In this document: one piece after another, positions 27,572-36,468 of the stretch | Layout: each line of letters starts with the position of its first letter | Position numbering within the stretch: the first letter of the stretch is position 1 | Assembly: GCF_003014495.1 (NCBI RefSeq) | Contig: NZ_PYGC01000012.1 | Span: 62,001-126,000 of the forward strand | Source: Prolixibacter denitrificans | GTDB taxonomy: Bacteria > Bacteroidota > Bacteroidia > Bacteroidales > Prolixibacteraceae | Reading direction: 5' to 3' | Length of the DNA: 64,000 bases | Translations under genes and position numbers: made by a program | The notes under the pieces: model-generated | Told to the model about the DNA's origin: nothing | The model's database searches: none | Seen by the model: the letters and a program-made list of their open reading frames with translations, nothing else

Positions 27572-27649
27572 GAGAATTTGTTGTTTAGGTTGTCCTACTC
27601 GTAAGGCTTTTCGGTTCCGCCCCGTTTTTTCAGTGGTTGCAGTCTCCAC

Positions 27650-28131
27650 ATAATATATCTTAAAAGATTTTATGAGTCGTTGAGTTATCGTTAATCCAAT
27701 GGAATAATGTGGAGGTGAAATGTAACGTTGCCTATGAATTTATTGATAGAAGAGAGTACAGAGGGATAGTGATAATAGGTTTTTGTGTCGGACGAAATGA
27801 GGTAAGGAAAAAGTCCGGAAGATGAAGATTTCATTTTCAGGTAGCTCATTTAGTTACATTTAAATATCTCGCTAACTAAATTAATTGATAACATACAGAA
27901 TACCAAATTGCCACAGCTTAAATATCTGTTTCCTATCTGTTAAAAAAGAGCATAAAGGTGTTTTATGGTAAAGAGAATATGAAGTCTTTGTTGTTGAGCT
28001 ATGTTTCAGGAACTTATTGTGGTGTTCTAAATAAAGATGGTTAAGTATTGATTTTTAGTTGGTTTTATTTTGATTTATGTTTTCTAACGATTTTTTTATC
28101 AGATAAGAAAAGGTGGTTTCAATTAATGATC
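27650..28131. other. AT-rich intergenic region
   Basis: About 480 bp with no convincing coding frame, hairpin or repeat. It separates the small membrane protein gene from the sulfur-assimilation leader and presumably carries upstream regulatory sequence for both. Confidence 0.5.
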
Positions 28132-28139
28132 TAATTTTG
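28132..28139 (+). promoter_or_regulatory. -7 box of the sulfur assimilation operon
   Basis: TAATTTTG is an exact match to the Bacteroidota -7 consensus TAnnTTTG. A good TTTG -33 box at 19-21 nt upstream is not seen (AAAGGTGG is there). A start of transcription near 28146 would place the leader peptide ATG about 16 nt into the transcript. Confidence 0.55.
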
Positions 28140-28161
28140 GGAGCATAAACAAACGAGAATA

Positions 28162-28257
28162 ATGAGAAATTTCACTTCAAATATGAATATGTGTATGTGC
28201 AGCATGATGATGTGTATGTGCAGAGCTATTCGTATGCGGAAGTGGACCTCAGGATAA
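28162..28257 (+). CDS. Met/Cys-rich leader peptide of the sulfate assimilation operon
   Basis: A 31-codon frame missed by size cut-offs. Residues 8-20 plus the preceding Asn read NMNMCMCSMMMCMC; in total 9 Met and 4 Cys of 31 residues. The stretch ATGTGTATGTGCAG occurs twice, 21 nt apart (28189 and 28210), each giving Met-Cys-Met-Cys. After the last Cys codon (28219-28221) the frame continues 11 codons to TAA at 28255. It sits between a consensus -7 box and a strong terminator in front of cysD. The product is probably irrelevant; what matters is whether the ribosome stalls on Met/Cys codons. No transcription factor gene is nearby. Confidence 0.85.
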   Translation: MRNFTSNMNMCMCSMMMCMCRAIRMRKWTSG

Positions 28258-28322
28258 AAGATAAGCCTTTACAAGGTTGAGGAAAAGATAAAGCCCTTCT
28301 GCATCGCAGAGGGGCTTTTTTT
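28235..28322 (+). promoter_or_regulatory. Attenuator: antiterminator and rho-independent terminator ahead of cysD
   Basis: Terminator: AAGCCCTTCTGC (28291-28302), loop ATC, GCAGAGGGGCTT (28306-28317), 12 bp with one G-U, then Ts to 28322. Competitor: TGCGGAAG (28235-28242), 14 nt past the last Cys codon, pairs over 8 nt (one G-U) with CTTCTGCA (28296-28303), i.e. the left arm of the terminator. An enclosed CCTCA/TGAGG stem (28247-28251 / 28278-28282) would stack inside. A ribosome stalled at Met/Cys codons leaves 28235-28242 free (read-through); one reaching the stop at 28255 covers it (termination). Confidence 0.8.
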
Positions 28323-28379
28323 ATGTCTATATCCGGATTTTCATCAGATACCAAAAACCAAATCATAATCAATCAAAAG

Positions 28380-29276
28380 ATGAGTTTAAACCATTTACAA
28401 CAACTGGAGGCCGAAGGAATCTACGTGATTCGGGAAGTGGCCTGGCGTTTTAAAAGGCCGGTATTGCTCTTCTCAGGAGGTAAGGATTCCATCGTGATGT
28501 TTCACCTGGCCCGGAAGGCTTTCTGGCCCGAACCGATTCCGTTTCCGCTGCTGCATATCGACACGGGACATAACTTTCCGGAAACGCTGGCTTATCGTGA
28601 TCGGCTGGTGAAGGAAAGCAACAGCCAATTAATCGTGCGAAGTGTGGAAGATTCTATCGCACAGGGAAAAGCGGTTGAAGAGACCGGCATTCATGCCAGT
28701 CGAAACAAGTTGCAGACCGTCACCTTACTGGATGCCCTGGAAGAATTACAGGTGGATGCTGCTCTGGGAGGCGGTCGGCGAGATGAAGAGAAAGCCCGGG
28801 CTAAGGAGCGTTTCTTTTCGCACCGTGACGATTTCGGGCAGTGGGATCCCAAGAATCAGCGGCCCGAATTGTGGAGCCTCTATAATTCGCATCATGCGGA
28901 AGACGAGCACTTCCGGGTATTTCCCATCAGCAACTGGACAGAGATGGATGTGTGGCAGTATATTTTGCGGGAAGAGATTCCCATTCCATCGCTTTACTTC
29001 TCGCACGAGCGACCGGTCATCGAGCGTGATGGAATTTTGCTGGCCGATTCTCCTTATCTCGTGAAGACGGAAGATGAAAGACCGGTTTTAAAAGAGGTTC
29101 GTTGCCGCACGATTGGCGATATGACCTGTACCGGGGTAACGGTGTCACCCGCTTCTTCGCTTGACGAAATCATCGCCGAAGTAGCAGCCACCCGTGTCAC
29201 CGAGAGAGGCGGTCGGGCCGATGACAAACGGTCCGAATCGGCCATGGAGGATCGCAAAATAGCCGGGTATTTCTAA
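28380..29276 (+). CDS. cysD: Sulfate adenylyltransferase subunit 2 (ATP sulfurylase small subunit)
   Basis: 298 residues from the ATG at 28380; the longer frame from 28323 begins within the terminator tail and is rejected. PP-loop SGGKDSIVMFHL near residue 40, GGGRRDEEKARAKER and the C-terminal GGRADDKRSESAMEDRK are CysD hallmarks. With CysN it makes adenosine 5'-phosphosulfate from sulfate and ATP. First structural gene of the operon, directly behind the Met/Cys attenuator. Confidence 0.97.
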   Translation: MSLNHLQQLEAEGIYVIREVAWRFKRPVLLFSGGKDSIVMFHLARKAFWPEPIPFPLLHIDTGHNFPETLAYRDRLVKESNSQLIVRSVEDSIAQGKAVEETGIHASRNKLQTVTLLDALEELQVDAALGGGRRDEEKARAKERFFSHRDDFGQWDPKNQRPELWSLYNSHHAEDEHFRVFPISNWTEMDVWQYILREEIPIPSLYFSHERPVIERDGILLADSPYLVKTEDERPVLKEVRCRTIGDMTCTGVTVSPASSLDEIIAEVAATRVTERGGRADDKRSESAMEDRKIAGYF

Positions 29277-29291
29277 TTCAACACATCACAC

Positions 29292-30560
29292 ATGACAACA
29301 TCAGCTATTACACATAACAGTTATCTCGATATGGATCTGCTGCGCTTTACCACCGCGGGCAGCGTGGACGATGGTAAGAGTACCCTGATAGGGCGCTTGC
29401 TGTACGATTCCAAATCCATTTTCGACGACCAGGTAGCCGACCTCGAAAAGGTGAGCAGCCGTACCGGAGAAGGATTGAACCTGGCTTTGCTGACCGATGG
29501 CCTTCGCGCCGAACGGGAGCAGGGCATTACCATCGACGTGGCATATCGCTATTTTGCCACGCCTAAACGCAAATTCATTATTGCCGATACTCCCGGACAC
29601 TTGCAGTATACCCGGAACATGGTGACCGGAGCTTCCACAGCCGATTTGGCCATTATCCTTATCGATGCCAAACAGGGCGTAGTGGAGCAAACCCGCCGTC
29701 ACACCTTTATTGCCAACTTGCTGGGCATTGAACACATCGTAGTCTGCATCAACAAGATTGATTTGGTCGATTATGACGAAGCCGTCTTTAATCGCATTGT
29801 TGCTGACTTCGATATGGTGAAGAAAGAGTTGAATACAGATGTGACTTTCATTCCTGTAAGCGCTTTAAAAGGCGATAACGTGGTCTCGCGGTCCGAAAAA
29901 CTGCCGTGGTACAAAGGTCCGTCGCTGCTTCAGTTGCTGGAAGGGATTCAGGTTCGTGTGCCCGACGCCGGTGAACTGTTCACTTTCCCGATTCAGGGCC
30001 GTGTAGGGCAAAATGGAAACAGTCGCTACACCGGGCGTATCAGCAGCGGAGTATTACGCCCGGGAACAACGGTGCGAGTGCATCCATCCGGTGAAGAAAC
30101 TACGGTGGAAGCTATTGAGCTATACCAGGAAGTGAAGCAGGAGGCTTTGCCCGGTGAATCGGTTTCGTTGCAATTGTCCGGAGTACAGTTGTTCAATCGT
30201 GGTCACCTTCTGGCGGATGCCGAAGCAAAAATTCGGTACACCCGGCATGTGTTAGTAGACACCTGCTGGTTTAGTGAAACGCCGTTGCAAAAGAACCACT
30301 CTTACATTCTTGCTCACGTAACCGGCGAGACAAGCGCGGTAGTTGCCCAGGTGGAAGATAAGATAGACTTCGGTAACCTGGAACGACTCAAAGGTGAGCA
30401 GACCATCGGGGTAAATGATATTGCCACGCTTTCACTGCAACTGGAGGAAGAAATTCCTGCTATTGCCTACCGGGAAAACCGGACATTGGGCAGCATCATT
30501 CTGATTGATCCGGATACGCACCAAACAGTGGCTGCCGGAATGATTATCAACCGGAAATAA
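29292..30560 (+). CDS. cysN: Sulfate adenylyltransferase subunit 1 (GTPase subunit)
   Basis: 422 residues, EF-Tu-like GTPase: G1 AGSVDDGKSTL, switch II ADTPGHLQYTRNM, G4 NKIDLVD, followed by two beta-barrel domains. GTP hydrolysis drives the unfavourable sulfate activation by CysD. No CysC (APS kinase) domain is fused at the C-terminus, unlike CysNC. 15 bp after cysD. Confidence 0.97.
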   Translation: MTTSAITHNSYLDMDLLRFTTAGSVDDGKSTLIGRLLYDSKSIFDDQVADLEKVSSRTGEGLNLALLTDGLRAEREQGITIDVAYRYFATPKRKFIIADTPGHLQYTRNMVTGASTADLAIILIDAKQGVVEQTRRHTFIANLLGIEHIVVCINKIDLVDYDEAVFNRIVADFDMVKKELNTDVTFIPVSALKGDNVVSRSEKLPWYKGPSLLQLLEGIQVRVPDAGELFTFPIQGRVGQNGNSRYTGRISSGVLRPGTTVRVHPSGEETTVEAIELYQEVKQEALPGESVSLQLSGVQLFNRGHLLADAEAKIRYTRHVLVDTCWFSETPLQKNHSYILAHVTGETSAVVAQVEDKIDFGNLERLKGEQTIGVNDIATLSLQLEEEIPAIAYRENRTLGSIILIDPDTHQTVAAGMIINRK

Positions 30561-30569
30561 CCGACGACG

Positions 30570-30797
30570 ATGAGAGAGAAAGCCTACCGTAGTCTGTTGA
30601 AGAGTGTCTCATGGCGGGCCCTGGGAACAATCGATACTATTTTGATTTCCTGGTTGATTACCCATAAAATCATGTTTGCGCTTTCTATTGGCGGTGTGGA
30701 GGTCTTTACCAAGATGTTCCTCTATTTTCTGCATGAGCGAGCGTGGAATCGCGTTGGGATTGGGAAGCACGATGAAAAACCGGAGTACGAAATTTAA
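30570..30797 (+). CDS. DUF2061 small membrane protein
   Basis: 75 residues: KSVSWRALGTIDTILISWLIT and the second hydrophobic segment ending FLYFLHERAWNRV are the DUF2061 signature. This family is repeatedly found inside sulfate-assimilation operons of Bacteroidota. Two membrane helices; role unknown, perhaps in sulfur oxyanion handling. Spaced 9 bp after cysN and 12 bp before the next gene, so firmly within the operon. Confidence 0.88.
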   Translation: MREKAYRSLLKSVSWRALGTIDTILISWLITHKIMFALSIGGVEVFTKMFLYFLHERAWNRVGIGKHDEKPEYEI

Positions 30798-30809: not shown

Positions 30810-31277
30810 ATGAGTCGAAATGAGAAAACCTATCTGCCCATTACCCTCGATATTACCGGGCGAAAAATCCTGGTGATTGGCGGTGGCCCGGATGCTGCGA
30901 AGAAACTGAAGATCTTGCTTCGGTTTACCCGCGATGTGGAAGTGTTGGCCGAAACCGTTTGTGACGAAATCCGGGAAACCGGAGTCGTTTGCCACGAAAA
31001 GCCTTACACTCCGGCTATACTCGACGATTATGTTCTGGTGTATGTCTGCCTGAATGACCCGGATATGGAACAGAGAATTCGTCGTGATGGCGATGAGCGG
31101 CGTGTACTGGTCAATGTGCACGACAAACCCGATTTGTGCCGCTTCGTTTCGCCAGCTATTTACCGGAAGGATAACATTAGCGTGTCGGTGGGCTCGGATT
31201 CAAAAAATGTATACGAGGCCATCGCTATTCGTGATTTAATCAGAGAATTCCTTGAGAAAAATTACTTCAGAAATTAA
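30810..31277 (+). CDS. Precorrin-2 dehydrogenase/sirohydrochlorin ferrochelatase-type siroheme synthase domain
   Basis: 155 residues corresponding to the N-terminal part of CysG (Met8/YlnF type). Starts YLPITLDITGRKILVIGGGPDAAKK, where the GGG.xAAxK loop binds NAD. The conserved VNVHDKPDLCRFVSPAIY and ISVSVGSDSKN segments follow. Oxidises precorrin-2 and may insert iron to make siroheme for CysI. The methyltransferase needed before it is encoded at 35659 in the same operon, so the CysG functions are split. Length is at the short end of the family. Confidence 0.9.
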   Translation: MSRNEKTYLPITLDITGRKILVIGGGPDAAKKLKILLRFTRDVEVLAETVCDEIRETGVVCHEKPYTPAILDDYVLVYVCLNDPDMEQRIRRDGDERRVLVNVHDKPDLCRFVSPAIYRKDNISVSVGSDSKNVYEAIAIRDLIREFLEKNYFRN

Positions 31278-31280
31278 CGT

Positions 31281-33056
31281 ATGAGCAACCTATTAGGACT
31301 TTTGAATGACAAACAGCAACAACTGGTTGGCGATTTGACCAGTGGTTTGCAACGCGACCAGCTGCTATGGCTGAGCGGTTACCTGGCCGGTCTGGGGGAA
31401 GGTTCCGGCGAAAAGCCCGCCGCAGCTTTAACCGGAACGCAGCAGGTTCCGCTGACGATATTATTTGGAACGCATACCGGTCACAGTGAAGCATTGGCCA
31501 ATCAGTTGGCCGAAAGGGCTCGCGAGCTCGGCATTGATGCGGAAGCGACCGTGATGGAAGATTATGACGTGCAGGAGTTACCCGATGCCGTAAACCTGCT
31601 CGTGATTGTGAGTACGGATGGCGAAGGAGAACCTCCGCTGAATGCGCTCGACTTCCTGGAATACCTGCAGGGTGAACGCTGCCGCGAATTGACCGGGCTG
31701 AATTATGCCGTGCTCGGATTGGGTGACCTTAGTTATAAGCAGTATTGCCAAACGGGCATCGATTTCGATGTGGCGTTGGAAGGCAAAGGCGCCAACCGAT
31801 TGCTGGAGTTGGTGAAATGTGATGTGGATTATCACGAAGATGCCCGCAATTGGAGTGATGGCGTGCTCGAAATTCTAAAACAACAAAAAGGAACCGTTTC
31901 CGATGCGTCCGTAACCGCTTCGGATAGCGTGACTCCCGCGGTTGTTTACGATCGGCAGAATCCTTTTAAAGCCAAAGTGCTTGAAAAGATTAAGCTGAGC
32001 GGAAGAGGTTCCGGCAAAGAGGTTTATCACCTGGAATTGTTGCTTCGTGATTCGGGACTGACTTATGAGCCGGGCGATACGGTGGGGATTTTCTGCGACA
32101 ATCCGCCGGAACTGGTGGAGAAGGTATTGGAGATTACCGGCTTCGACCGCAATGAGCAGGTGACGATTAAGAACGGGACGCATTCGCTGGAAACCGCTTT
32201 ACGCCATCACCTGGAATTATCGGTGTTGAACCGCGCAGTATTGGAAAGCTACCGCGAATTGACCGGCAATGAGATTCTGGGTGATTTGCTGAATGACGAG
32301 CAGGCGCTGGATACCTATCTCTATGGACATGATGTGGTCGATTTGCTGACTGATTTTCTTGCGGAATTGGAAATTGCAGGACTGGTGTCCGTACTGACAT
32401 CGCTGCAACCCCGGATGTATTCCATCTCATCGAGTCAGGCAGCTCATCCGGAGGAACTGCACCTCACCGTTGCGGCCGTGCGCTACGACAATCATGACCG
32501 TCGCCGCCACGGTGCTTGTTCGACCTTCCTGTCCGACCGGGTAGAAGCGGGTTCAGAGATTCCGATTTTCATCGAGAAGAATCGGAACTTCAAATTACCC
32601 GAACAAAATGAAGCGCCACTTATCATGGTGGGAGCCGGAACTGGAATTGCTCCGTACCGGAGCTTTGTGCAACACCGTCAGAAACTAAAGGCGAAAGGTG
32701 ATTCGTGGTTGTTCTTTGGCGATCGGCAATTCTTCACCGACTTTCTGTACCAGGCCGAGTGGCAGAAATTCCTGAAAAAGGGATCGCTGGGACAGCTTAC
32801 GGTAGCCTTCTCGCGTGACCAGGAAGAGAAGTTGTATGTGCAGCACCGGATGCGTGAACACGGCCGTCAGTTATACGAATGGTTGCAACGGGGCGCTTAT
32901 TTCTACGTGTGTGGCGATAAAATCCACATGGCCAAAGATGTTCATCAGACGCTTTTGGAGATTGTGGCGACCGAAGGGGGTATGACGCCCGAAAAAGCCG
33001 AAGAGTACCTGAAAGATCTGAAAAAGCAGCGCCGTTACCAGCTGGATGTGTATTAA
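31281..33056 (+). CDS. cysJ: Assimilatory sulfite reductase flavoprotein subunit
   Basis: 591 residues, close to E. coli CysJ in size. N-terminal flavodoxin domain with FMN loop [19 protein letters not shown] (about 60-200); FAD domain with [13 protein letters not shown] domain with [15 protein letters not shown] and a terminal Tyr (QLDVY) as in the ferredoxin-reductase family. Passes electrons from NADPH to CysI. 3 bp after the siroheme gene. Confidence 0.96.
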
Positions 33057-33072
33057 CCTCAAAACAAAAACA

Positions 33073-34770
33073 ATGAGCGAGCAAATTAACTGGGATGTTT
33101 TATCCGAACTGGAAAAATTAAAATACGATAGTAACTATCTGCGGGGCACGTTGACGGAGAGTTTAGCCGATCCGATTACCGGTGCCATTGCCGCAGCCGA
33201 TCAACAGATATCGAAGTTTCATGGCATTTATCAACAGCAGGACCGTGACTTGGAGCTGGAACGCAAGAAACAAAAGCTGGAACCGGCCTGGTCGTTCCTT
33301 ATCCGGGTACGGTTGCCGGGAGGTATTGCCACAGGCGAGCAGTGGCTGACCATGGACAGTCTGAGCGATACCCATGCCAACAGTACCTTGAAGTTGACAA
33401 CCCGTCAGGCCTTTCAGCTGCATGGTGTATTCAAGCGGAAGCTAAAGTCCACCATTCAGGGCATTAATCGGTCGCTGCTGGATACGATTGCCGCCTGTGG
33501 AGACGTGAACCGGAATGTGATGGCGAGCCCAAATCCTTACGGTTCGAAAGTGCATGGCGAAATACAGGATATTGCCCGTCAGTTGAGCGCCCACCTGCTG
33601 CCGCAAACACCAGCTTATCACGAAATCTGGCTGGATAAAAAGTTAGTGGCTGGCGGACAGCAGGAAATTGAGCCGTTGTATGGTAAGCGTTACCTCCCGC
33701 GTAAATTCAAAATTGGTATCGCCATTCCGCCGAACAACGACACCGATATCTTTTCGCAGGATGTGGGCCTGATTGCCATCGAAGAGAATGGAAAACTGGC
33801 CGGATTTAACGTCGCTGTTGGCGGCGGCATGGGCTCTACTTTTGGACGGAACGACACGTACCCGCGGGTAGGAAATGTGCTTGGCTTTGCCACCCCCGAT
33901 CAAGTGTTGGACGTGGTAGAGAAAGTTGTGTTGATTCAGCGCGATAACGGGAACCGGGAAGATCGGAAACGGGCGCGTTTGAAATATACCATCGATTCGT
34001 ACGGGCTCGATTGGTTTGTGAAAGAGTTACACGAAAGACTCGGTTATGAGTTGGAGGCCGAACGCTCGTACACGTTTACCCGTAACGGCGACGACTATGG
34101 ATGGCACGAGAATGATGGTCGCTGGTACTACACGCTCTTCATCGAAGGCGGCCGGGTGAAAAACACCGGGACTTACCAGTTGAAAACAGCCTTGCGGGAG
34201 GTAGCGAAACTGGGGTTGTGCGATTTCCGACTGACCGGAAACCAGAACCTGGTGCTGGGCAATATTGCTGCCGGAGATAAGAAAAAGATAACCGATACCT
34301 TGCAGCAGTGGGGGGTTATCCAGGAGGAGTTGTCCGGGCTGCGACGCAATTCCATCGCTTGTGTGGCGTTGAACACCTGTCCCTTGGCTTTCGCCGAAGC
34401 AGAACGTTACCTGCCTTCACTGATTACAAAGATTGAGAAACTATTGGACGAAGTTGGACTATTTCAGGATGAGATCGTGATACGGATGACAGGTTGCCCG
34501 AACGGTTGCGGGCGTCCTTCGCTGGCAGAGATAGGCCTGATTGGTAAATCGCTGGGACATTATAACCTCTACCTGGGCGGTGGCTTTTCCGGCGAACGCC
34601 TGAACAACCTCTATCGCGAAACGCTCACAGAGGAAGAGATACTGGAAACGCTGCGTCCGCTGTTAAAACAGTACGCTGAAGAACGAGAAGAAGGCGAACG
34701 CTTTGGTGATTTTGTTATTCGTGCAGGAATTGTGAAAGAAATTAAGGAAGGAGCAGAATTCAGACACTGA
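33073..34770 (+). CDS. cysI: Assimilatory sulfite reductase hemoprotein subunit
   Basis: 565 residues from the ATG at 33073; a Met at 33046 overlaps the cysJ end and is rejected. The siroheme-4Fe-4S ligands are Cys430 and Cys436 (ACVALNTC) and Cys475 and Cys479 (TGCPNGC), matching the spacing of the E. coli enzyme. Reduces sulfite to sulfide with six electrons from CysJ. A 62-bp gap with a GC-rich inverted repeat (GCCGGT/ACCGGC) but no clear T-run follows. Confidence 0.97.
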
Positions 34771-34832: not shown

Positions 34833-35681
34833 ATGAGAGAGATAACACACATTAGTATACTGGGCTGTGGCTGGTTAGGAACTTCTTTGGCAAAAGCGTG
34901 GCTGAAAAAAGGTGCCATTGTGAACGGTTCGGTTCGGGATGAGGCGGTTTTTCCGTCACTGGCAGCACAGGGCATTCGTCCCTTCCGGGTGAATGTGGAG
35001 GAGAATGGTATTTTCTCCAACGCCGAAGCTTTTTGGAACTGCGATGTGCTGGTGGTCAGTATTCCGCCGGCCCGTAATGAGCGGGTAACGGAAGTTTATC
35101 CCCGTCTGGCGGAACAGGTGGTTGCTGAAGTGAAGCGTCGAAGCATTCCCCGGGTGGTTTTCATCTCTTCCACATCGGTATATCCTGAAACTGGCGGTGA
35201 AGTAAATGAAGAAACATCCGGTCGGCCGGAGAAACCCTCAGGAATCGCGCTGTGGCAGGCGGAACAGCTTTTTCTGCAGGAAGAATCGTTTCGGACCCTG
35301 GTGGTGAAGCCCGGTGGATTGATTGGTCCGGGGCGTTTACCGGGAAATTTCATCCGGAAAGCCCATCCTTCCCGTCCGGGAAACGTGCCGGTTAACCTGG
35401 TGCACAGCGATGATGTGGTAGAAGCCATCCTGCATCTCACGGAAGTGGAAAAAGATAGTGCTGTTTACAACATCGTCTCGCCGGAACATCCTTTACGGAG
35501 TGAGCTGTATAGCCGGGCGGCAGAACTGCAGGGCATCGGTTTGCCCGATTTCCCGGTAGGAGAAAATGTGAAGTTTAAAACAGTCAGTAGTCAGAAATTA
35601 ATCGATACCGGTTTTCGGTTTACCTACCGGAATCCGTTAGCGGCTTTGGAGGATTTGTATGAACAGAAGGAGAATGATTGA
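34833..35681 (+). CDS. NAD(P)-dependent epimerase/dehydratase-like protein (YeeZ-like)
   Basis: 282 residues with an N-terminal Rossmann motif SILGCGWLGTSLA and ISSTSVYPETGG in the active-site strand; extended-SDR fold of the YeeZ type, in which the usual YxxxK is degenerate (IALWQAEQLF here). Function in sulfur metabolism unknown, but it overlaps the methyltransferase gene by 23 bp, so the two are translationally linked and belong to the operon. Confidence 0.85.
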   Translation: MREITHISILGCGWLGTSLAKAWLKKGAIVNGSVRDEAVFPSLAAQGIRPFRVNVEENGIFSNAEAFWNCDVLVVSIPPARNERVTEVYPRLAEQVVAEVKRRSIPRVVFISSTSVYPETGGEVNEETSGRPEKPSGIALWQAEQLFLQEESFRTLVVKPGGLIGPGRLPGNFIRKAHPSRPGNVPVNLVHSDDVVEAILHLTEVEKDSAVYNIVSPEHPLRSELYSRAAELQGIGLPDFPVGENVKFKTVSSQKLIDTGFRFTYRNPLAALEDLYEQKEND

Positions 35682-36468
35682 ACGGGTACCGGTGTCATTG
35701 GTCGGGGCCGGGCCCGGCGATCCGGAATTGCTGACGGTGAAAGCCCTGAAGCGACTACAGCAGGCTGACGTGTTGCTATACGATGCACTGATAGACGAAC
35801 GCATTCTGGAGGAAACCCGGCCGGATTGCGTAAAGATATATGCTGGAAAAAAGTGCAGTGATGGACAGAATCCACAGGAACGACAGGATGAAATTCACCG
35901 GCAGATGGCTTTGCATTTTCGGAAAGGAAAGCAGGTAGTTCGCCTGAAAGCTGGTGACCCGATGATTTTTGGGCGAGGTATGGAAGAGGTTCGTTTCCTG
36001 GAAAGTGAAAGTATCCCGTGGGAGGTAGTCCCGGGGATCAGTGCAGGGATTGCGGCTTCGTCGGCCTTTGCGTTGCCCCTGACTGAGCGGAATAAAAGCC
36101 GGATGGTGCTGTTTACCAGTGGCTATACATCTTCGGGCGAAACGCCGGGATGTGATCCGTTGGTGTTGGTGATTAAAGAAGGCGGAACGGTTGTGGTGTA
36201 CATGGGCCTGACCAAGTTGCATTGTCTGCTGGAGGTGATGGAGAAAGCGGGCATTGGGAATATTCCATTGATGATCGCCGATCGCGTCAGCCAGGAAGGG
36301 GAGCAGCTCATTGCGGCTACGACCGACAGCGTATTGGAACGCCTGGAAAGCGAGCAGGTTCAGGGGCCTTCACTGGTGATGGTTGGGAAATACCTGGAAA
36401 CATTGGAACCAAAAGAATTGCTGGAATCGCTTCATCAGCAGCTACCGGATGCATCGCTGTTGACTTAG
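35659..36468 (+). CDS. cobA: Uroporphyrinogen-III C-methyltransferase
   Basis: 269 residues; start at 35659 or Met6 at 35674. SVSLVGAGPGDPELLTVKA-type N-terminus (here VSLVGAGPGDPELLTVKAL), YDALID, RLKAGDPMIFGRGMEE and TVVVYMG are the canonical SUMT motifs. Makes precorrin-2 from uroporphyrinogen III for siroheme, serving CysI. Last gene of the operon; converges with the next gene leaving 9 bp. Confidence 0.95.
   Translation: MNRRRMIERVPVSLVGAGPGDPELLTVKALKRLQQADVLLYDALIDERILEETRPDCVKIYAGKKCSDGQNPQERQDEIHRQMALHFRKGKQVVRLKAGDPMIFGRGMEEVRFLESESIPWEVVPGISAGIAASSAFALPLTERNKSRMVLFTSGYTSSGETPGCDPLVLVIKEGGTVVVYMGLTKLHCLLEVMEKAGIGNIPLMIADRVSQEGEQLIAATTDSVLERLESEQVQGPSLVMVGKYLETLEPKELLESLHQQLPDASLLT

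Follow-up and report, generated by a model that had tools for sequence, protein, structure and literature searches.

A predicted Met/Cys-reading transcription attenuator before a sulfate assimilation operon of Prolixibacter denitrificans, with similar leaders before sulfur genes in other Bacteroidota

Results

A Met/Cys-rich leader ORF and a terminator precede cysD

The window is a stretch of 64,000 nucleotides from Prolixibacter denitrificans (contig NZ_PYGC01000012.1, positions 62,001 to 126,000). It contains a run of genes for sulfate and sulfite assimilation that starts with cysD and is preceded by a promoter box, a short ORF and an intrinsic terminator (Table 1). The box, already recognised in a reading of the sequence alone, agrees with TAnnTTTG, which we take to be the -7 consensus. 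The ORF translates to MRNFTSNMNMCMCSMMMCMCRAIRMRKWTSG and contains 9 Met and 4 Cys in its 31 codons, exactly as that sequence-only reading had counted. Among 1478 short ORFs (10-60 codons, both strands, whole window) it has the highest Met and Cys density, with 11 of 14 residues compared to 5 in the runner-up. Its core holds a 14-nt direct repeat (28189-28202 and 28210-28223).

Table 1. Features of the leader and of the genes behind it, in window coordinates.
Feature	Positions	Strand	Basis
-7 promoter box TAATTTTG	28132..28139	+	sequence; fits TAnnTTTG
Met/Cys-rich leader ORF, 31 codons	28162..28257	+	sequence, translation, ORF density ranking, relatives
Segment 1, partner of segment 2 (28239-28246)	28171..28178	+	folding; conserved helix in alignments
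Regulatory codon core, codons 8-20 (MNMCMCSMMMCMC)	28183..28221	+	translation; ribosome-position folding
Segment 2: antiterminator 5' strand (28234-28242, 28244-28245) and protector partner (28239-28246)	28234..28246	+	folding, alignments, spacing
Hairpin within the antiterminator (28247-28251/28278-28282 and 28265-28269/28273-28277)	28247..28282	+	folding
Intrinsic terminator hairpin, segments 3 and 4, 13 bp	28290..28318	+	sequence, folding, alignments
cysD, sulfate adenylyltransferase small subunit	28380..29276	+	PAPS_reduct domain; ORF can start at 28323
cysN, sulfate adenylyltransferase large subunit	29292..30560	+	GTP_EFTU domains
DUF2061 small membrane protein	30570..30797	+	domain match; homologue first behind 38/71 relatives' leaders
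Siroheme synthase N-terminal type	30810..31277	+	NAD_binding_7
CysJ-type sulfite reductase flavoprotein	31281..33056	+	domain match
CysI-type sulfite reductase	33046..34770	+	domain match
NAD-dependent epimerase-like protein	34833..35681	+	domain match
Uroporphyrin-III methyltransferase, CobA type	35659..36468	+	TP_methylase domain

None of the eight neighbouring proteins that were scanned matches a transcription-factor family. As far as these eight go, this fits the earlier statement that no transcription factor is encoded near the operon. The block at 28002-28133, upstream of the leader, is well conserved in the window's own genome (G000), in its congener (G113) and in G114, and is a possible regulator site; it lies upstream of the promoter and leaves room for a regulator encoded elsewhere. 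A DUF805 RNA (RF03081) lies on the minus strand at 27588-27654, at the start of a divergent small gene. The DUF2061 membrane protein may take part in the handling of sulfite or sulfate.

The leader RNA can form three mutually exclusive helices

Folding of the leader predicts a protector helix (1:2), an antiterminator (2:3; 28234-28245/28294-28304) and the terminator (3:4), which exclude one another. Segment 2 is common to the protector and the antiterminator, segment 3 (28294-28304 in the antiterminator) to the antiterminator and the terminator, which ends in a T-run at 28316-28322. When no ribosome is present, the protector (28171-28178/28239-28246) hides segment 2 in the predicted fold. The sequence-only reading had placed a 12-bp terminator at 28291-28317; the hairpin and its T-run are there, with 13 bp at 28290-28318. 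The pairing it had proposed between 28235-28242 and 28296-28303 exists as well and is longer, joining 28234-28242 and 28244-28245 to 28294-28304. Its view that this pairing and the terminator are mutually exclusive is borne out by folding and by conservation in relatives; helix 1:2 had escaped it.

The whole leader RNA, terminator included, folds much better than shuffled sequences (z -5.8). Of 1000 dinucleotide shuffles of the window sequence alone, 32 attain the energy of the antiterminator and 133 form as many pairs. With chance levels near 3% and 13%, respectively, one sequence would be no proof of the helix; the proof comes from the relatives. At equilibrium, the terminator is more stable than the antiterminator (-29.8 compared to -18.7) and wins in the complete RNA. 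Antitermination must therefore be kinetic, with the choice made during transcription.

We then placed a ribosome on the leader as a mask of 15 nt from the first base of the A-site codon (codons 1, 4, 8, 10-13, 15, 17-20, 22, 25, 28, 30 and 32; codon 1 without edge pairs). With RNA polymerase at 28304, the antiterminator is the best fold as long as the tested A-site codon is no later than 20, where the core has its last Cys. At codon 22 only 5 bp of it remain, and at codon 25 it is absent. As a matter of geometry, a stall on the regulatory codons frees segment 2 and a ribosome at the stop codon covers it.

The leader is patchy at CysD loci

The congener has the same leader: the stretch that begins with the -7 box and ends with the terminator carries two substitutions, of which one turns Ala22 into Val, compared to 91.4% identity between the two genomes across an aligned 4.4 kb. 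G114 retains only fragments of the operon (G114:C1:1158000-1168500, locus L112; L with a number denotes a locus throughout). Here, the alignment jumps from 28136 to 28422, and a deletion has removed the promoter, the leader, the terminator and the start of cysD. Neither G112 nor G114 contains a match to the covariance model described below, in keeping with a patchy element.

Within 600 nt upstream of 123 CysD loci (oriented by tblastn, with G113 counted twice and the G114 remnant left out), the leader is present only in G000 and G113. This would have suggested an oddity of one genus; a blastn search then showed leaders before other genes. The scan missed the leader of L104 (Bacteroidetes bacterium RYN_276, a metagenome genome), which precedes cysC-cysD and lies further upstream, before cysC. 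A second cysD in the window's genome is without a leader, and the region upstream of this second cysD of the genus is a different one. Neither a search of 393 genomes of the order for an MCMC..MC codon pattern nor, among the matches listed, a search of 4 genomes for a degenerate codon pattern brought up anything beyond the known site or noise. The leader that precedes OsmC in G113, used as a DNA query, found no match in the window's genome.

In genus g10, hairpins near cysD were considered as attenuators and rejected, as they resemble operators over a promoter. One type of upstream region at these CysD loci (e.g. L011, L014, L017, L120-L123) has a palindrome near ACCATAAACATGGT, the other a hairpin running into a TAnnTTTTG-like box. 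Both are likely regulator-controlled promoters.

Leaders of the same design are conserved across the family

A blastn search with 28130-28330 against 140 genomes of the family returned weak matches at matched spacing in other genera. Nineteen of the 20 loci fetched from this list contain a Met/Cys-rich leader; the 20th (L163), a plain terminator without a leader, was dropped. All 19 have a CAGAAGG-like segment 2 and a terminator resembling CCCTTCTGC...GGGGC-T(n), and nearly all an early CTTCTG-like segment 1. Aligned with the window and G113 (alignment A1, 21 rows), they are paired to 93.2% in helix 1:2, 95.2% in helix 2:3 and 98.1% in helix 3:4. When helix 2:3 is slid, its pairing falls to 36-57%. 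One of its pairs varies as GC, UG, GU and UA, and its covariation score is reached by none of 500 shuffles; doubly changed pairs (1, compared to 1.1 in shuffles) are not in excess.

A first covariance model matched 106 of the 140 family genomes and 18 of 23 genera at E<=0.01, counts in which the matches near the threshold, between E 1e-4 and 1e-2, are mostly uninspected. At E<=1e-5, 15 of the 23 genera are matched, and some genomes of the family hold several matches. Forty family loci were picked by hand from strong and secondary matches and form a non-random set. In every one of the 72 matches inspected, all at E<=1e-5, the leader ORF contains between 5 and 17 internal Met and Cys, a richness that is partly circular in later matches, because models R1 and R2 were trained on leaders with a ATGTGTATGTG core and a script chose the Met- and Cys-richest ORF nearby. 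Sixteen weak matches in the genus served as negative controls, and none is Met/Cys-rich (0-4 Met and Cys).

Two of these 16, one per genome, are an ilvD leader. In the window's genome it consists of a MMRTIVDNLLLVDIIILVGTS leader and a terminator (G000:C3:481125-481295, L248; L245 in G113). It shares the design and is rich in Leu, Val and Ile codons (LLLVDIIILV), which makes a branched-chain attenuator likely.

The 72 inspected leaders, 71 of them distinct, were fitted to the structure of the model (alignment A3). Here, pairing in helices 1:2 and 3:4 amounts to 97.0%, double changes occur in 11 of 16 pairs, and the covariation score is again reached by none of 500 shuffles. By the sequence of their arms, the leaders were assigned by hand to types A (CAGAAGG), B (TGTGGAGGG), C (e.g. 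TTGCGAAAGG) and D (CGGAAGAG), with matching partners in each. Type B sits one column out of register for helix 2:3 on A3. In an alignment-free comparison of segment 2 with the left arm of the terminator, 59 of 71 leaders have a cognate pairing better than that of their own dinucleotide shuffles (p<=0.05), and the other 12 miss this level. Cognate arms pair better than the mean of non-cognate types in 67 of 71 leaders for helix 2:3 (-14.8 compared to -9.8 kcal/mol) and in 65 of 71 for helix 1:2 (-16.3 compared to -10.8 kcal/mol). The start of the antiterminator lies a median of 14 nt past the first base of the last Met or Cys codon of the core (range 3 to 38 nt).

The sequence-only reading had staked itself on Met/Cys enrichment and helix conservation in relatives. 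Both were found: Met/Cys-rich frames together with conserved helices 1:2, 2:3 and 3:4 and covariation occur in the family and, beyond it, in further classes of the phylum. This bears on the idea that a small tandem repeat has produced the Met/Cys run incidentally, in front of an ordinary terminator and with no regulation at all. The direct repeat in the core and the weakness of the antiterminator on a single sequence fit such an origin, which is nevertheless contradicted by other genera and classes, where leaders of different sequence and with covarying helices precede genes of the same kinds. We regard it as scarcely credible.

The strong fold of the leader RNA (z -5.8) could also reflect a structured-RNA switch, either a riboswitch or a protein-binding leader, in which the ORF is incidental. 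Yet the arms change across types A to D while the Met/Cys ORF and the logic of the pairing stay. Among 29 leaders with exact motifs, 28 have segments 1 and 2 in the same codon phase, which is also an indirect sign that the leader is translated, and conservation is confined to the core codons and the arms, with no aptamer-like core. Nor did Rfam 15 (SAM-I, other riboswitches, T-box and leader families) place any family above its gathering score on the window leader or on the leaders of 38 scanned loci (36 distinct places). A switch of this kind is very improbable.

A terminator-like hairpin was found by script in 71 of the 72 model matches, one of these being a wrong pick (L155); in L202 the script found none. 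This bears on the further option that translation of the leader acts through coupling, re-initiation or Rho and not through a 2:3/3:4 switch. A precedent exists in mycobacterial Cys leaders, for which the accessible part of one study describes no conserved terminators and suggests Rho (PMC1262725). The near-constant hairpin and the conserved 2:3 alternative, on the other hand, make this option highly unlikely here.

Mostly sulfur-linked genes follow the leaders

The first downstream genes played no part in the search for leaders. At 69 of 71 family loci they belong to recurrent, mostly sulfur-linked families: DUF2061 (38), OsmC (11), siroheme synthase type (6), MetY (3), HemA type (3), CysK type (2), CysD (2), DUF4395 (2) and carbonic anhydrase (2). 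Outside the tally are L202, with no family, and L216, where a short OsmC-like gene can be read by eye. L148 has DUF2061 followed by CysJ and CysI types, and the CysJ type also follows in L154 and L165; a PALP (CysK-type) gene comes after OsmC in L205, L207, L212 and L215. Where checked, cysJI or cysK stands behind DUF2061, siroheme synthase or OsmC, and it is on account of such neighbours that DUF2061, OsmC and carbonic anhydrase are called sulfur-linked. The proposal of an attenuator ahead of a sulfate assimilation operon fits the window, while the usual partner in relatives is DUF2061-cysJI and not cysD. Leaders L213 and L236 precede DUF4395 (PF14340), a family that is said to be connected with sulfur metabolism, going by the title of Lyubetsky 2014.

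A second covariance model, built from the 72 family matches and used at E<=1e-4, matched 5 of 374 genomes in a sample of the order (a patchy distribution, with one match false) and 25 of 395 in a sample of the phylum, the window's genome being included in both. With the window's genome set aside, a Met/Cys leader is present at 3 of 4 matched places in the order and at 26 of 27 in the phylum. L258 and L271 have none and were rejected as false matches. The phylum is given here as Bacteroidota, the label of most named CysD relatives. All 30 first genes outside the family (L104 included) again fall into recurrent, mostly sulfur-linked families. These are MetY (16), CoA-binding (6, with a metY start next in all six, by eye), and one each of APS kinase, PAPS reductase, solute-binding protein, sulfite reductase, rhodanese, DUF2061, OsmC and hexapeptide transferase. 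The 30 places count as 28 distinct ones, since L260/L284 and L261/L285 are the leader pairs of one operon each.

These genes matter for one more alternative, in which the nascent Met/Cys-rich peptide itself is the sensor, binding copper or another metal or becoming oxidised, and arrests the ribosome in front of the same RNA switch. Met- and Cys-rich peptides can bind Cu(I), and the RNA switch would look identical. Against this, the genes downstream serve sulfur assimilation and the synthesis of Met and Cys, and neither tally contains a copper-handling family. The peptides differ widely in sequence, length and Met:Cys order, yet keep Met and Cys codons, and the last core codon lies about one ribosome edge (median 14 nt) before segment 2. 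We consider a peptide sensor improbable.

Some leaders stand in series with a second leader or a SAM-I riboswitch

Two Met/Cys leaders occur in tandem before nine metY operons (L256, L259, L260/L284, L261/L285, L262, L263, L264, L265, L276) and one cysH operon (L269). The second leaders are same-strand model matches (E 2.7e-9 to 0.005) with Met/Cys-rich ORFs. Ten of the 38 leader loci scanned with Rfam (36 distinct places) have a SAM-I riboswitch directly after the Met/Cys leader and ahead of metY or CoA-binding/metY genes (L266, L267, L268, L270, L273, L274, L275, L278, L280, L282). Relatives appear to combine or exchange control by Met/Cys leaders and by SAM-I. Close to the tandem metY leaders L262, L265 and L276, the other strand carries a SAM-II riboswitch.

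In the window's genus, a SAM-I riboswitch precedes aspartokinase, with metY about 1.7 kb further on. The contig of this locus contains no match to the Met/Cys leader model. With SAM-I near metY and the Met/Cys leader at cysD, the Met branch appears to be under SAM control there and the sulfate operon under Met/Cys charging.

The codon mix of the cores varies with the genes. Met-dominated cores precede some MetY operons (L204, L206 and both leaders of L256), and more Cys-heavy cores precede OsmC-cysK. The Met fraction is 0.71 in metY leaders compared to 0.51 in Cys-branch leaders (p=0.006); with the CoA-binding-metY leaders (0.45) added it is 0.65 compared to 0.51 (p=0.10), so that the separation is partial, and both p-values are rough because the compared leaders are related.

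Discussion

We conclude with high confidence that transcription of the sulfate and sulfite assimilation operon in the window is gated by ribosome-mediated attenuation, in which the leader responds to how much charged Met- and Cys-tRNA is available. Sequence and comparison show the leader ORF, three covarying helices, the distance between core codons and antiterminator, and sulfur genes behind the leaders of relatives.

In the proposed mechanism, RNA polymerase would start near 28146 and a ribosome would follow on the leader. If Met or Cys is short, the ribosome would stall on codons 8-20 and cover or separate segment 1, leaving segment 2 free. Free segment 2 would pair with segment 3 once 28294-28304 has been made, so that the terminator would come too late and cysDN-DUF2061-siroheme-cysJI would be transcribed. 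If Met and Cys are plentiful, the ribosome would reach the stop codon and cover segment 2, and helix 3:4 would terminate transcription. Without translation, helix 1:2 would form and lead to termination too. The start site, the translation of the leader, the stalling, the termination with its response to Met- or Cys-tRNA charging, and whether Met or Cys dominates are parts of this model that we infer.

The trp, his, thr and ilv leader attenuators combine an ORF with regulatory codons, helices 1:2, 2:3 and 3:4 and an intrinsic terminator before a biosynthetic operon. The window leader shares the short regulatory-codon ORF, the three helices and the terminator, and, as in thr and ilv, the signal appears to be more than a single amino acid. 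It has codons for products of its pathway (in relatives partly by construction), an intrinsic terminator, and an antiterminator with a protector 1:2. It differs from the classical cases in that the codons are Met and Cys, the targets are sulfur assimilation, cysK and metY, and Rfam gave no match on the scanned leaders. SAM-I riboswitches (S-box, RF00162) also control Met/Cys genes from the leader; they are, however, metabolite aptamers without an ORF, and in ten relatives lie behind a Met/Cys leader. Lopatovskaya 2010 and Lyubetsky 2014 may contain earlier predictions. Mycobacterial Cys-rich leaders are said to act by translation attenuation, the term that a paper citing Canestrari 2020 uses in its accessible part.

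As far as the accessible text of Seliverstov 2005 (PMC1262725) goes, the leaders of mycobacterial cys operons are Cys-rich short ORFs before sulfur assimilation genes, like that of the window, and have no conserved terminator. The window leader has a terminator and mixes Met with Cys, and does not belong with them as they are described there. In Rhodobacterales, uORFC-8-2 upstream of cysS likewise has Cys codons and a terminator and is predicted, in the part of the source consulted, to be a ribosome-mediated attenuator (PMC8632094). In contrast to the window leader, it belongs to another phylum, targets cysteinyl-tRNA synthetase and has two tandem Cys codons only, with no Met reported in that part. 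Closer to the window in taxonomy, attenuation by leaders before amino-acid biosynthesis operons has been inferred in Flavobacterium psychrophilum, a member of the Bacteroidetes, although the available portion of that paper names no sulfur operon or Met/Cys peptide (PMC9723704). Within the open-licence literature, as partially accessible and including PMC2965389, PMC13236596 and PMC4833913, no Met/Cys attenuator is described for this phylum.

Leaders of the same design before OsmC-cysK, metY and other sulfur operons suggest that the window locus is probably one site of a sulfur regulon spanning the phylum. From the comparisons above, we lean moderately towards such a regulon, in which modular Met, Cys or mixed leaders would precede operons for sulfate reduction, siroheme, cysteine and methionine, some of the metY operons having two leaders or a leader and SAM-I in series. 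If this is true, transcription behind a leader and SAM-I in series would occur only when tRNA charging is poor and SAM is low, so that two RNA sensors of unrelated kinds would form an AND gate.

Cys is the first organic product of sulfur assimilation, and Met derives from Cys. A mixed core would thus report sulfur shortage as such, and these bacteria probably sense that shortage through the speed of their ribosomes over Met and Cys codons. Reading Met and Cys together would give Bacteroidota a direct and testable sensor of sulfur shortage, based on an RNA motif that is absent from Rfam. In series with a SAM riboswitch, such an attenuator would be a natural two-input control. The leader family predicts a regulon and points to the uncharacterised DUF2061, OsmC-like and DUF4395 proteins as linked to sulfur.
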